From Arthrobacter crystallopoietes (GTDB lineage: Bacteria > Actinomycetota > Actinomycetes > Actinomycetales > Micrococcaceae): DNA of 64,000 nt. This document shows positions 27,131-60,591 of this stretch, piece after piece (the first letter of the stretch is position 1; each line of letters opens with the position of its first letter). The position numbers and the translations under genes are program-made. The notes under the pieces were generated by a model. The model saw nothing but the letters and a program-made list of their open reading frames with translations. It was not told where the DNA came from and did no database searches. The DNA is taken from assembly GCF_017603825.1 (NCBI RefSeq), contig NZ_CP072014.1:4154001-4218000 (forward strand), in the 5' to 3' direction.

Positions 27131-27937
27131 GTGAATGCCATTCCCACTCCCTACGAAGACTTGCTGCGAGAGGTCATGGCCTCCGGCACCGTGAAATCGG
27201 ACCGTACCGGCACCGGGACGCATAGCGTTTTCGGCCGGCAGATCCGGTTCGATCTGGCCGAGGGTTTCCCGCTGATCACCACCAAGCGGGTGCACTTCAA
27301 ATCCGTCGCCTTGGAGCTGCTCTGGTTCCTGCGCGGTGATTCCAACGCCAGGTGGCTGCAGGAACGCGGCGTGAAAATCTGGAACGAGTGGGCGGACGAG
27401 AACGGCGAACTCGGCCCTATCTACGGTGTGCAGTGGCGCTCCTGGCCGACGCCGGACGGCGGGCATATCGACCAGATCGCCGACCTCGTGGAGGGTTTGA
27501 AAAACAACCCGGACTCGCGCCGGCACATCGTTTCAGCCTGGAACGTGGCCGAGATCAAGAACATGGCACTGCCGCCGTGCCACGCGTTCTTCCAGTTCTA
27601 TGTGGCGGATGGCAGGCTGTCCTGCCAGCTGTACCAGCGCAGCGCCGACATGTTCCTGGGCGTGCCGTTCAATATCGCGTCCTACGCGCTGCTGACGCTG
27701 ATGCTGGCCCAGCAGGCGGGACTGGAACCCGGAGAGTTCGTCTGGACCGGTGGCGACGTCCACATCTATGACGACCATGTGGAACAGGTGACCGAGCAAT
27801 TGGCCCGCGACCCGTATCCCTACCCGCAACTGCGCATCCTGCGGAAGCCGGCGAGCATCTTCGACTACAACTTCGAGGACTTTGAACTGCTTAACTACCA
27901 GCACCATCCCGCTATTAAGGCGCCGGTGGCCGTATGA
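27131..27937 (+). CDS. thyA: Thymidylate synthase
   Basis: Methylates dUMP with methylene-tetrahydrofolate. 268 residues, close to the E. coli length. Catalytic Cys150 is in [31 protein letters not shown] binds phosphate, and [19 protein letters not shown] and [14 protein letters not shown] complete the site. GTG 27131 has no Shine-Dalgarno, but TAGACT lies 7 nt upstream, as in leaderless genes. folA overlaps its stop (ATGA), the classic thyA-folA pair that regenerates tetrahydrofolate. Confidence 0.98.
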
Positions 27938-28515
27938 TCCCCGCCAACACCCCCTCTGGCACCCATGCAGCCCGGAAAGAACCGGTGCTAGGCCTGATCT
28001 GGGCGCAAAGCTCCAACGGTGTGATCGGCAAGAACGGCGAGCTGCCGTGGCACCTGCCGGAAGACCTGGCGCACTTCAAACGGACCACCCAGGGGCATCC
28101 AGTCATTATGGGCCGCCGGACGTGGGACTCGTTCCCCGCGAAGTTCCGCCCGCTGCCGGGCCGGACAAATATCGTCATCAGCGGTAACCCGGAACGGAGG
28201 GAAGAGCTGGCCCGTTCCGGCGCTGTCGCCGTCGGATCCCTTGAGCAGGCCCTTGCCGAGGCCGCATCCAGCCCCGGCAGCGAAGAGGTCTGGATTATCG
28301 GTGGCGGCGAAATCTTCCGCAACGCTACCGCCCTGGCGAACACCGCCGTCGTTACTGTGATCGATCTGGAGACGGACGGCGACACCTTCGCACCGATGCT
28401 AAGCGCAGGATGGACTTTCGACGCAGCCGACCCCGCCGAGGGTTGGCTCACCTCTTCCAACGGCACCCGGTATCGCATCGCGTTGTGGACGCAGCAGGTG
28501 GATCCCGCCAACTGA
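27934..28515 (+). CDS. folA: Dihydrofolate reductase
   Basis: Reduces dihydrofolate with NADPH. 193 residues. [20 protein letters not shown] is the N-terminal strand and Met20-type loop, [20 protein letters not shown] holds the substrate acid (Glu/Asp position), and GRRTWDSFP and [13 protein letters not shown] bind NADPH. The N-terminus is about 20 residues longer than in E. coli. It overlaps thyA by 4 nt and is probably translated by re-initiation. Confidence 0.97.
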
Positions 28516-56327: not shown

Positions 56328-57926
56328 CTAGCGGCGGTTTTTAGGGCGCGGGTCGGCCGGCGGTGCGGGCTCTGACGGTACGGGTGGCGGAGCCCAGTCC
56401 AGGATGGCCGGAACACCAATGGCAGAGTCGCAGTCAACCTGCCTCACCTGGGGCTGCTCCTGCTCCTCCTCCTTTGGCTCCTCCTTGTCCTCATCCTTGT
56501 CCTCGTCGTCCGATTCTTCCGGCTCCGGCTTGGGCTTGGGTTTGGGCTGTTCCGCCGCCCTCCGGTTGTCAGCCTCGCACTGGGCCAGCGCGTTCAGATA
56601 GGACCGTTCGGCGTTCTCCTGGTCCCGGAAGAACTGTGCTCGAACGCCCAAGGCGCTTTCATAGGCCGCGTAGGAAACCCAGTAGGCATCCCATTCGGCG
56701 CCGATGGCCGCCCAGGCCTTGTTGACCTCGCGGACTTCCTTGGCATAGCCCTTGTAATCGTCCGCGGCCTGGCTGTACTTCTCGTGCGCCGTCCAGTAGT
56801 CGAGCACGCTTTGCTGCCATTGCTGGGTACCTGCTGCCAGCTTCTGGCTGGCCTCCCGGCGCCGTTCGGTATTAGTCTGCTCCGCTTCCTGAGCGTCGAA
56901 CACCATGGGACTCATTCCGGTGAACGCCCAGCCGCAGCCGGGGCCTTGCTTGTCCTCTGCCAGGATCCTGATGCTGGTTTCCGTTACGGCTGCCTTTGCC
57001 GGGCTCTTCGGCGGTTCCGGAACATCCATCCGTTTGGGCATCGGCGGCCATACCGCATAGTAGGGATCCGCAGCCGGCTGGACGTATTCAACCTTGATCT
57101 TGGGCCCCGGCAGCGGAACGGCTTCGATCCCTGAGCCGGCGGGCAGCGTGGGCATTGGCACGTCCCTGACCGCCACTTTGTCCTTGACCGTGTACGGCTT
57201 GTATCCCGCATCGGACCACGGCGAGCGCGAGGCATCCGCAGCTACCGATTTTTGGTCTACGCAGACGTCTTTGAGCCCGGCGGCAAGATGATCGTCCAAC
57301 TGTCTCGCGACCCGGCTCAGCGGAGCATCCGGCGCGCCGACCAGAAAGACAAGCACGTCTCCACGGCGGAAGGAGACTACCTGAGCGGCGCTGCTGCCTT
57401 TATAGGTAAAGACACGATGTGCTTCCACCCCTGGATCTTTCCCGCCGACTTTGCTCTCGTTGATGGCCGCGGCGCTTCCGGCACAGGACTGCGCCTCCTT
57501 CATCTGCTGCCGCATGACCTCGGCGCCAAGTCCCGCGGTATACGCGGCCGTAACGACCTGGACACGATCGCCGTCGACGCTGAACAGCCGCGACAGGGCT
57601 ACAGACGGGGCCGTGTCGTTGACCGCGCAGGAGTACGGCACCGGCTGCGACGCCGAGCGCTGCAGCGTGCCGGAAGGCCGCCATCCCTTGGGCGGCTCCG
57701 TCAATGCTGCAGACAGCACCTTTTCCGCCGGCATGTCCCGGATCTCGGCAAAGACCGGTTTGGCCGCAGTGCTTTCCGACGCCTTTTCCTCAACGGAAAC
57801 TTGTTCGGAGGCAACAAAAGGCGTTCCGGACAGATACAGCGCGCACAGTCCGCTCCCTGCGACAGCCGTCAGTGCCAGGGCACCGGCTGCCAGTGCCATG
57901 CCTGGGCGCTTTTCGAATACAGACAC
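56328..57926 (-). CDS. Large exported protein of unknown function, co-transcribed with PBP
   Basis: 532 residues. An N-terminal membrane/signal helix (GMALAAGALALTAVAGSGLC) is followed by an extracellular domain (about 75-225), a Pro-rich region, a long helical, probably coiled-coil segment (about 345-470), and a charged Lys-Pro and Glu/Asp-rich linker (about 465-500). The last 35 residues are Pro-rich. It starts 17 nt after the PBP stop with GAGGAG as ribosome site, so it is probably expressed with it and may work with the wall synthase. No domain recognised. Confidence 0.8.
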   Translation of the reverse strand: MSVFEKRPGMALAAGALALTAVAGSGLCALYLSGTPFVASEQVSVEEKASESTAAKPVFAEIRDMPAEKVLSAALTEPPKGWRPSGTLQRSASQPVPYSCAVNDTAPSVALSRLFSVDGDRVQVVTAAYTAGLGAEVMRQQMKEAQSCAGSAAAINESKVGGKDPGVEAHRVFTYKGSSAAQVVSFRRGDVLVFLVGAPDAPLSRVARQLDDHLAAGLKDVCVDQKSVAADASRSPWSDAGYKPYTVKDKVAVRDVPMPTLPAGSGIEAVPLPGPKIKVEYVQPAADPYYAVWPPMPKRMDVPEPPKSPAKAAVTETSIRILAEDKQGPGCGWAFTGMSPMVFDAQEAEQTNTERRREASQKLAAGTQQWQQSVLDYWTAHEKYSQAADDYKGYAKEVREVNKAWAAIGAEWDAYWVSYAAYESALGVRAQFFRDQENAERSYLNALAQCEADNRRAAEQPKPKPKPEPEESDDEDKDEDKEEPKEEEQEQPQVRQVDCDSAIGVPAILDWAPPPVPSEPAPPADPRPKNRR

Positions 57927-57942
57927 AATGGCTCCTCAACTG

Positions 57943-60258
57943 CTATTCGGCCGGGACACTGATCGAGGTATCGCTGCCGGCGCTCAATGTGATCGCCACT
58001 TCCTGCCGGTACTTCAAGGAGCTGCCCGGGGTCGGAGTCTGCGCGGTCACCGTATCCGGCGTGTACAGCGGATTCTCCTTGGCCGGCTCTTTATTAATCA
58101 CCGGCGTCAGGTTGTTCCGCAGCAGCACCGTGATGGCTTCGTCTACCTTCAGACCGCGCACGTCGGGAATGGCTTTGGCAGTAACTGTCCCTACCCCGAC
58201 GGGCGCCGATTCGGGCAACGGAACCGCCGGCAGTCCCTTGTGCGCACCTTCCATCGTGGCCTTCCAGACGGGCCCGGCCACCTCCGAACCGGTGAGATCG
58301 TAGAAGGTGGTCCCGTAGGCGTCGACTTCGTCCAGTGGATACTGGCCGCCGCCGCGCGGGTCGCCGAGCCACACCGCCGTCGAGAACTGCGGCGTCATCC
58401 CCACGATCCAGTTGGCGGAGAAATCGTTGGTGGTGCCCGTTTTGGCCCCTGCCTCGCGGCCCTTGAGTTTGCCCATGCCCGAGAGAGTGCCGCCGGACTT
58501 GAACGGCTCTTTCAGAGCGTCCGCGACCGTATCTGCAACGCCCGGATCAATCCCCTGGTGGCAGTCGGCATCGGGAACCGGGATCTTCTCGCCGGTATCG
58601 CTGCGGACCCCGGCAACCACCGTGACCGGTTTGCATACAACGCCGCCGCTGACGAAGGAGGCGTAAGCGTTGGCCATTTCGAGCGGCGAAATCTCATACG
58701 CTCCTAGTGCCAAGGAGGCTTCCCGGCCGCTGAGCTTGTCCGTGGGCAGAGACGTCACTCCCAGCATTTCGGCAAACTTTGCCACGTCCACCACTCCGGT
58801 CTGTTCGATCAGCCGAACGAAGTACACGTTGATGGATTTGCGGATGGCCTCGTAGGCGTCGACGCTGCCGTGGTTGATGTATCCGTAGTTGTGGAATCCC
58901 TCCACCGGATCATCTAGCGACGGCGAGTAGTACGGTCCGTTCGCCGAGTAACGCTGCGAGGCAGGAACCCCCTGGCTCAGGGCCGTGCCCAGCACAATCG
59001 GCTTCATCGAGGAACCGACTTGGAACTCGCTGGTGGCGTAAACCACCTCGGTTGCCCCCTTACCCTTGCCCCACTTCCGGTTCTGGGTGATGGCAGCAAT
59101 ATGGCCGGTTCCCGGTTCAACGACGGCGACGCCGAGGGCGGCTCGGTTCTTATCGCCCAGCGCTTTGGTCACCGCTTTCCGGGACGATTCCATGGCCTGC
59201 CGGTCCAACCCTGTCGTCAGGGTCATCCCGCCTCGGGATAGCCGGTCCGCCCTTTGCTCGGGTGTGGCTCCGAAGGCCGGATTGGTCAGAATTTCCTCGC
59301 GGACAAGATGGCAGTAGAAGGGATACTCCGAGTCGCCGCAACTGGAGGGAACAGATCCGCGGTCGATGCCCAAGGGCGCTTCCCGAGCGGCATCCGCTTC
59401 TTCGGCGGTGATCGTCCCCCGTCGCTCCAGCACGGAGAGCACGGTGTTCCGCCGCATCGTCGCCGCTTCCGGATGGACCACCGGATCATAAACTGCCGGT
59501 CCCTTGAGCATGCCCACCAGCAACGCCGATTGCGTCAGGTTGAGTTTAGATGCCGAAGTGTTGAAGTAGATCCGGGCAGCGGCCTCGATGCCGTAGGCGC
59601 GGTTGCCGAAATATACCGCGTTGACGTACATCTTCAGGATTTCGTCCTTGCTCAGCTGCTGTTCGAGCCGGACCGCGTACTTCGATTCCCGGATTTTCGC
59701 GTTGTAGGTTTCTCCCACGGCCACCGATTCTTCGGTTTCGTCGCGCGCGTTGTTGACCAGGATGTTCTGGACCAGCTGCTGGGTGAGGGTCGAGGCTCCT
59801 TGCTGGCTGGCATTGACAACGTTGTTCACGAACGCCCGCGTAATACCGTACGGGTCCACTCCGTTGTGCTCGTAGAAGCGTGCGTCTTCAGTATCGATCA
59901 GTGTCTCGAGGAACGTCGGCGACACATCGTCGACGTCGATGTCTATCCGGTTCTCGCTGTAGAAGCGGGCGAACTCCTTGCCGTCTTTGTCCAGCAGCAC
60001 AGTGTGTTGGGGCAATGAGCGCTCCAGCGGCAGGTCCTCGGGTAGTTCCTCCCAGAGGCTCACCAGACTATTCGCTCCGGCCGAGACCGCAACGGCTCCC
60101 GGCGCGACCAGCGTCCCAGCGCTTAGCGCAACAACCGCCACGGCTCCGGCCCACACGGCCAGCCGTGCCGGCCAGGCACGCTCCTTCTCCGGATAACCCG
60201 ACCGAGCAGACCCCATAAGTTCATGGAGACTTGTCAATGCCGCGTTTTTTCGTCCCAT
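57943..60258 (-). CDS. Class A penicillin-binding protein with PASTA domain
   Basis: Bifunctional peptidoglycan glycosyltransferase/transpeptidase (PonA-like), 771 residues. One membrane helix near residue 40; the GT51 domain has the catalytic Glu in LIDTEDARFYEHNGVDPYGI and GASTLTQQLVQN. The transpeptidase motifs are SxxK in VGSSMKPIVLG, SxN in RKSINVYF and KTG in AGAKTGTTND. A single PASTA domain ends it (AIPDVRGLKVDEAITVLLRN). CAGGAG precedes ATG 60258. Confidence 0.95.
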   Translation of the reverse strand: MGRKNAALTSLHELMGSARSGYPEKERAWPARLAVWAGAVAVVALSAGTLVAPGAVAVSAGANSLVSLWEELPEDLPLERSLPQHTVLLDKDGKEFARFYSENRIDIDVDDVSPTFLETLIDTEDARFYEHNGVDPYGITRAFVNNVVNASQQGASTLTQQLVQNILVNNARDETEESVAVGETYNAKIRESKYAVRLEQQLSKDEILKMYVNAVYFGNRAYGIEAAARIYFNTSASKLNLTQSALLVGMLKGPAVYDPVVHPEAATMRRNTVLSVLERRGTITAEEADAAREAPLGIDRGSVPSSCGDSEYPFYCHLVREEILTNPAFGATPEQRADRLSRGGMTLTTGLDRQAMESSRKAVTKALGDKNRAALGVAVVEPGTGHIAAITQNRKWGKGKGATEVVYATSEFQVGSSMKPIVLGTALSQGVPASQRYSANGPYYSPSLDDPVEGFHNYGYINHGSVDAYEAIRKSINVYFVRLIEQTGVVDVAKFAEMLGVTSLPTDKLSGREASLALGAYEISPLEMANAYASFVSGGVVCKPVTVVAGVRSDTGEKIPVPDADCHQGIDPGVADTVADALKEPFKSGGTLSGMGKLKGREAGAKTGTTNDFSANWIVGMTPQFSTAVWLGDPRGGGQYPLDEVDAYGTTFYDLTGSEVAGPVWKATMEGAHKGLPAVPLPESAPVGVGTVTAKAIPDVRGLKVDEAITVLLRNNLTPVINKEPAKENPLYTPDTVTAQTPTPGSSLKYRQEVAITLSAGSDTSISVPAE

Positions 60259-60498: not shown

Positions 60499-60509
60499 CT
60501 TACGTCCGG

Positions 60510-60591
60510 TGGCAGATGAGGGATTCGAACCCCCGTAGGCATTGCCAGCTGATTTACAGTCAGCCCCCTTTGGCCGCTCGGGTAATCTGCC
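60510..60591 (-). tRNA. trnY: tRNA-Tyr (GTA anticodon)
   Basis: 82-nt class II tRNA. Acceptor GGCAGAT/ATCTGCC, anticodon arm CTGACTGTAAATCAG, a long variable arm and T-loop TTCGAAT. Discriminator A; CCA is not fully encoded. Confidence 0.96.

Follow-up and report, generated by a model that had tools for sequence, protein, structure and literature searches.

Organisation of the locus

What does a large exported protein do when its gene follows directly behind that of a wall synthase? The question is raised by two neighbouring genes of Arthrobacter crystallopoietes, lying in a window of 64,000 nucleotides that was analysed as a whole (contig NZ_CP072014.1). Both open reading frames, one for a class A penicillin-binding protein (PBP) and one for a 532-residue exported protein (here EXP), are confirmed in the window sequence. 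An earlier, sequence-only reading had assigned the pair to the interval 57943-60258 on the reverse strand; this interval holds the PBP, but EXP lies outside it, at 56328-57926 (Table 1). The same reading correctly put EXP directly behind the PBP, although the gap is 16 nt and not the 17 nt it had given.

The PBP is a class A enzyme, with glycosyltransferase (PF00912, 9.1e-58) and transpeptidase (PF00905, 6.5e-22) domains in one chain, and is one of four such enzymes in this genome. The GTG start of EXP is supported by the alignment of ten members from the genus, all of which match from residue 1. Because the gap is so short, the two genes are likely to share a single transcript; a promoter scan found none, where 1.3 would be expected by chance. 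A tRNA-Tyr gene is located upstream of the PBP gene, at 60508-60591 on the same strand.

Table 1. Positions of the PBP and EXP genes and of the regions they encode, in window coordinates, with the corresponding pair on a 309 kb element in locus coordinates.
Feature	Position	Strand	Basis
Class A PBP, 771 aa: N-terminal membrane helix, glycosyltransferase, transpeptidase, single C-terminal PASTA	57943..60258	-	Pfam; hydrophobic stretch from residue 32
PASTA domain of PBP, residues 697-759; missing from the EXP-less paralogue	57982..58170	-	Pfam PF03793, 2e-9
EXP ribosome-binding site GAGGAG, within the 16-nt gap	57932..57937	-	Sequence read directly
EXP, 532-aa membrane-anchored extracellular protein, GTG start	56328..57926	-	ORF, alignments, loci
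EXP membrane anchor, residues 9-32, predicted N-in/C-out, without conserved lipobox	57831..57902	-	Sole hydrophobic segment; C28 not conserved
EXP domain I, residues 58-235, probably alpha/beta; Cys 100, 148, 222; motifs YxAGxGA, RRGDV	57222..57755	-	Alignments; low-confidence models
EXP hallmark motif D..GPGCGWAFTG, residues 325-337	56916..56954	-	D325, G328-W333, F335 invariant in 25-member alignment
EXP coiled coil, residues 345-459, aromatic heptads	56550..56894	-	Period 3.5; AlphaFold2 helix
EXP acidic variable linker, residues 460-498	56433..56549	-	44% D/E; varies within family
EXP Pro-rich tail C....P.IL....P..P..P..P.DPRP, residues 499-532	56331..56432	-	Kept in close members and most of 25-member alignment
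EXP and PASTA-tailed class A PBP of the 309 kb element	L192:4896-6557, L195:2498-4843

Architecture of EXP

The anchor, coiled coil, and charged and proline-rich stretches that had been read from the sequence are borne out by hydropathy, composition and the period of conservation. Windows of 19 residues with a Kyte-Doolittle value of at least 1.6 start at residues 9-14 only, which leaves a single N-terminal hydrophobic segment. A lipobox cysteine is the signal of a lipoprotein; in EXP, the candidate C28 is not conserved across the family and has no lipobox context. Beyond domain I, residues 236-320 form a proline-rich linker (20% Pro), in which V292, W293 and P294 are invariant in all 11 close members. 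The 115 residues of segment 345-459 contain no proline, and the tail has 29%. This tail is missing in four loci (L134-L137) and cut off in one (L130).

The coil is the best-defined part of the molecule. The strongest period of conservation is 3.5 residues and that of hydrophobicity 3.45; none of 5000 shuffles equalled either signal at 3.5. Seven positions in seven-residue steps, W370, Y377, Y384, Y391, V398, W405 and W412, are invariant in 11/11 aligned members. An AlphaFold2 model of the single full-length sequence, poor elsewhere (mean pLDDT 45.4), has a helix across this segment, with block pLDDT values of 71-87 over residues 351 to 460.

Domain I is modelled far less well, with pLDDT of 37.5 when two named relatives are included and of 37-45 across models. 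Two models give the order b-b-a-b-b-b-b-a, at a confidence too low for conclusions about the fold. A Foldseek search gave nothing below E 0.09, the best match being DcrB (E 0.094), so that a PsbP/DcrB-like shape is at most a hint. By eye, domain I seemed to resemble PknH_C (PF14032), with a like order of strands, helix and cysteines; this kinship was not supported by HHalign (probability 1.5%, P 0.034, against a PknH_C alignment of at most 20 sequences).

C148, C222, R187, D190 and the GPGCGW motif are invariant in all 25 aligned members. Six cysteine columns are found among these 25 sequences (C100 in 23, C148, C222 and C331 in 25, C450 in 21 and C499 in 20), and they fit the disulfides that an exported protein may form. 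We define the EXP family here by an N-terminal anchor, a domain I with Cys148 and Cys222, and the GPGCGW motif; the window protein has all three.

Searches of the family libraries place EXP in no known family. The window protein matches no Pfam family at E ≤ 1, nothing credible in NCBIfam (best E 0.16), nothing in PHROGs better than E 0.084 and, as a single sequence, no PDB sequence at E ≤ 1. With the 25-member alignment the best Pfam match is Trypan_PARP (E 4.4e-4, in 2/25 members), which we attribute to low-complexity proline and acidic repeats, and the best PDB match is NRBF2 (E 0.012), confined to the coiled-coil part. No Lpo family is present among the 15 Pfam families that the 25 members match, and no enzyme domain was found in the window protein with Pfam and NCBIfam or in the 25 members with Pfam.

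Linkage of EXP to a class A PBP

Of 34 candidate EXP loci that were fetched (11 and 23 in two sets), two are spurious (L121, L122), leaving 32 real loci, in which gene calls are the longest ORFs and not curated. Conservation of the pair, which the sequence-only reading had proposed as a check, proves extensive: a class A PBP adjoins EXP in 30/32 loci, and the other two (L133, L138) are cut by contig ends, L138 being a second fragment of the genome that holds L130. The arrangement varies. PBP precedes EXP on one strand in 17 loci (L049-L059, L116-L120, L124), with gaps that range from -4 to 16 nt across L049-L059; the genes diverge in seven (L123, L125-L130); and EXP precedes PBP in six (L131, L132, L134-L137). 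Outside the genus, EXP is only 20-38% identical to the window protein, yet the adjacency is kept in distant families despite these changes of order and orientation.

The flanking genes differ among the families looked at, and no third neighbour conserved across them was seen when their neighbourhoods were read by eye and ten proteins scanned. In all four f50/f51 loci (L134-L137) a small frame for a putative lipoprotein, which has a lipobox-like signal, separates EXP from PBP; it has 167 codons in L136, 172 in L137 and a similar number in L134, and runs beyond the view in L135. Its product may be a third subunit. As for other class A PBPs, EXP was detected beside none of 48 control PBPs at a profile E ≤ 0.01, some of these loci being cut by contig ends. 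The controls comprise nine paralogues (L060-L068), 20 loci from L069-L088 and 19 from L172-L190.

EXP and PBP distances are strongly correlated (r = 0.952 for 435 pairs of 30 loci, with 0/2000 label permutations as high), as is expected of any co-inherited pair. These 30 loci include the plasmids pACHL01 and pYJN5-1 and a 309 kb element. Most groupings of the EXP tree agree with those of the PBP tree, and the pair may well move as a unit.

The linked PBP lineage and its paralogue

The linked PBPs belong to one lineage. In a midpoint-rooted tree of 55 PBP catalytic regions, all 24 linked PBPs fall within a single group of 32 rows (SH-aLRT 98). The remaining rows of this group are four paralogues and four PBPs with no adjacent EXP (L172, L173, L179, L188). 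L172 comes from a genome (G601) whose EXP sits at the end of another contig, and the other three are f36 PBPs, some of them near contig ends. When the very divergent PBP of the 309 kb element is added, the midpoint root moves on to that PBP and the linked PBPs spread over the tree, no longer forming one group apart under the drawn root; the number of label changes stays at three.

A profile of the linked PBPs separates the same proteins by score. In a scan of 394 genomes of the class, the best PBPs of the 16 genomes with EXP score 847.8-1197.8 bits, against a top score of 792.8 bits in genomes that lack it (800.1 for L178 rescored on its full ORF), a gap that is partly there by construction because the profile was built from linked PBPs. 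The second PBP of G601 scores 797.3 bits and the window genome's own paralogue 991.4 bits.

This paralogue is found in 10/10 genomes of the genus, is 64-69% identical to the linked PBP and lies inside the same PBP group. The copy in the window's genome (G000:C1:353167-355230, L060) has neither a PASTA domain nor an adjacent EXP. In all nine paralogue loci fetched, matches to the PBP model stop at position 684-689 of 774, so that PASTA is absent, and EXP is missing as well. The linked lineage, by its sequences, typically ends in a single PASTA domain. The joint absence of PASTA and EXP from the paralogue is one event, and hints at PASTA as a possible contact site; PASTA-like tails without EXP are also seen by eye, in L173 and L188.

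Distribution of EXP

A single-sequence search found EXP in 11/59 genomes, its own included, which amount to 10/10 of the genus and one genome of another genus. At the family level, profile searching gave matches in 18/395 genomes. Two of these (G174 and G337, the source of L121 and L122) were weak and proved unrelated to EXP once the ORFs were read. At the class level EXP is found in 16/394 genomes, four of the matches being weak (2.4e-4 to 4.7e-9) and yet having the GPGCGW motif and a PBP neighbour. In a sample of the phylum, 4/396 genomes gave matches, two of which are weak and left uncounted (G910, G1084). Judged from these searches, the family is old but patchy, being universal in the genus and present in few genomes of the family, class and phylum samples.

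EXP on plasmids and on a 309 kb element

Among 72,556 plasmid records searched by tblastn, four plasmids with sizes of 375-440 kb carry EXP. They are pACHL01 of Pseudarthrobacter chlorophenolicus A6, pYJN5-1 of Paenarthrobacter sp. YJN-5, and one each in Arthrobacter caoxuetaonis and A. sp. zg-Y1110, the last two most likely being L120 and L119, respectively, of the 32 loci. In the three plasmid regions that were opened, the PBP gene ends 3-6 nt before EXP. MOB-suite types all four plasmids as non-mobilizable. pACHL01 (NC_011879.1, 427 kb) is annotated with SecY, SecE, SecG, signal peptidase I, DnaE, LigA and NrdEF, and also carries two kinds of pilus genes and a conjugative-transfer-type protein (L226, L229-L236).

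A scan of IMG/VR added one further EXP (profile E 2.9e-43), on a low-GC record of 309,534 bases. Separation of EXP from PBPs in relatives, which the sequence-only reading had named as evidence against a partnership, occurs on this element but at no chromosomal or plasmid locus that was seen; about 24 kb lie between its EXP and the one class A PBP detected on it. Of its ORFs, 27 match pACHL01 (tblastn, E ≤ 1e-5; six of them one zinc-ribbon gene), among them NrdE (70.5% identical) and NrdF (62.7%). The record is classed as a virus in IMG/VR, yet appears plasmid-like by its genes when these are judged by eye: among the 45 largest ORFs, proteins of replication, gyrase-like, reductase and pilus types were recognised, and no capsid or terminase. 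Its EXP matches nothing in 50,697 phage records. One ORF of the element (L192:8407-9831) is coupling-protein-like by eye and has a Hint/intein-type domain (PT-HINT, 1.4e-8).

The window itself resembles pACHL01 at two places. Among its ORFs of at least 100 aa, matches at E ≤ 1e-10 come only from the EXP/PBP locus and from a region at 27-28.5 kb. In the latter, at 27131-28515 on the forward strand, two ORFs are 73% and 57% identical to pACHL01, the second corresponding to its annotated dihydrofolate reductase.

Functional implications

That EXP is a partner of this PBP is well supported by the sequence comparisons, because the adjacency in 30/32 loci persists where order and orientation have changed, even when identity has fallen to about 20%, and the two proteins very probably work as a pair. 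Our preferred reading, which we consider reasonably probable, is that EXP is a dedicated membrane-anchored extracellular cofactor, an activator or a positioner, that serves a single lineage of class A PBPs in actinobacteria. As EXP is membrane-anchored and extracellular, shows no recognisable enzyme domain and keeps to a single PBP lineage, it most likely binds that PBP and activates or positions it. EXP and PBP would be neighbours in the membrane, each inserted by its N-terminal helix. The outside domains of EXP, braced by disulfides and connected through a long coiled coil that probably self-associates, would touch the PBP ectodomain, perhaps at the PASTA tail. EXP would then either turn on polymerisation and cross-linking or keep the PBP at a particular place in the wall.

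The linkage fits any shared wall process and not direct contact alone. EXP could instead have a structural or a sensory part in the wall, as a brace inside it or by monitoring its state, and act at the same wall site as the PBP without touching or regulating it. An anchor, small domain, long coil and proline-rich tail, with no enzyme domain found, would suit a spacer equally, and the lipoprotein between the genes in 4/4 f50/f51 loci raises the possibility of a larger wall complex. We nevertheless regard such a role as unlikely, given that a general wall protein need be neither tied to one PBP lineage nor missing from the 48 control PBP loci. Conservation by mere descent, with neighbours retained from an ancestral operon and no functional tie, is most improbable; one ancestral locus could be the source of all copies, but the genes have stayed adjacent at 20-38% identity outside the genus while their order and orientation changed and their flanking genes came to differ between the families looked at.

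The plasmid copies prompt a different question, namely why such an element should come equipped with a wall synthase and the partner of that enzyme. The pair might be a module with which large mobile elements remodel the wall locally for their own pili or DNA-transfer machine, the chromosomal copies being captured or ancestral. This would account for EXP on four 375-440 kb plasmids, right behind the PBP gene in the three opened, for the Sec subunits, signal peptidase I, pilus genes and conjugative-transfer-type protein of pACHL01, and for the presence of PBP and EXP on a 309 kb element that shares 27 ORF matches with it. It appears improbable, however, when the pair is universal in the window's genus (10/10), the window's genome is a single 4.38 Mb contig, no window ORF of at least 100 aa outside the two regions described matches pACHL01 at E ≤ 1e-10, and all four plasmids are typed as non-mobilizable. 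A broader proposal, on balance doubtful, is that a two-gene wall-synthesis cassette of PASTA class A PBP and extracellular cofactor travels between actinobacterial chromosomes and plasmid-like elements of 300-440 kb, on which it would serve the element's own surface machine by building or opening the host wall. At least one of these elements also has genes of its own for Sec translocon subunits, a signal peptidase, replication and pili.

EXP represents a family that has no name in the libraries searched and that keeps to one PBP lineage throughout a bacterial class; with its clear hallmarks, the family is open to direct deletion and pull-down tests.

Comparison with known PBP partners

In searches of the open-access literature by title and start of abstract, we found no description of this PBP-EXP pair. 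A functional analogy is with the Gram-negative accessory proteins LpoA, LpoB and LpoP, each tied to one class A PBP and described as lipoproteins in the passages of PMC7205459 drawn on here. The sequence-only reading had invoked LpoA and LpoB in proposing an activator or scaffold. A partnership with the PBP is what the loci support, and by this analogy EXP may also activate it, but the likeness does not extend to the protein itself, EXP having an N-terminal anchor without a conserved lipobox and no Pfam match. Among Gram-positive bacteria, MacP of Streptococcus pneumoniae regulates PBP2a, a class A PBP that requires it, according to PMC10746261; no Pfam or NCBIfam match links EXP to MacP in a comparison made through these family libraries.

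Another parallel is CofA (DUF3566), the cofactor of PBP1a in Corynebacterium glutamicum. Like EXP, it is an actinobacterial membrane partner of one specific class A PBP and has no enzyme domain, as the relevant passages of PMC7205459 describe it. The same passages give CofA 114 aa and two TM helices, with both termini inside and its gene beside gyrase. EXP, in contrast, has about 530 aa, a single TM helix with the remainder outside, a gene beside that of its PBP and no DUF3566 match, and the window's genome holds a separate DUF3566 gene at G000:C1:933075. By the features tested, EXP is a family of its own, outside both Lpo and CofA.
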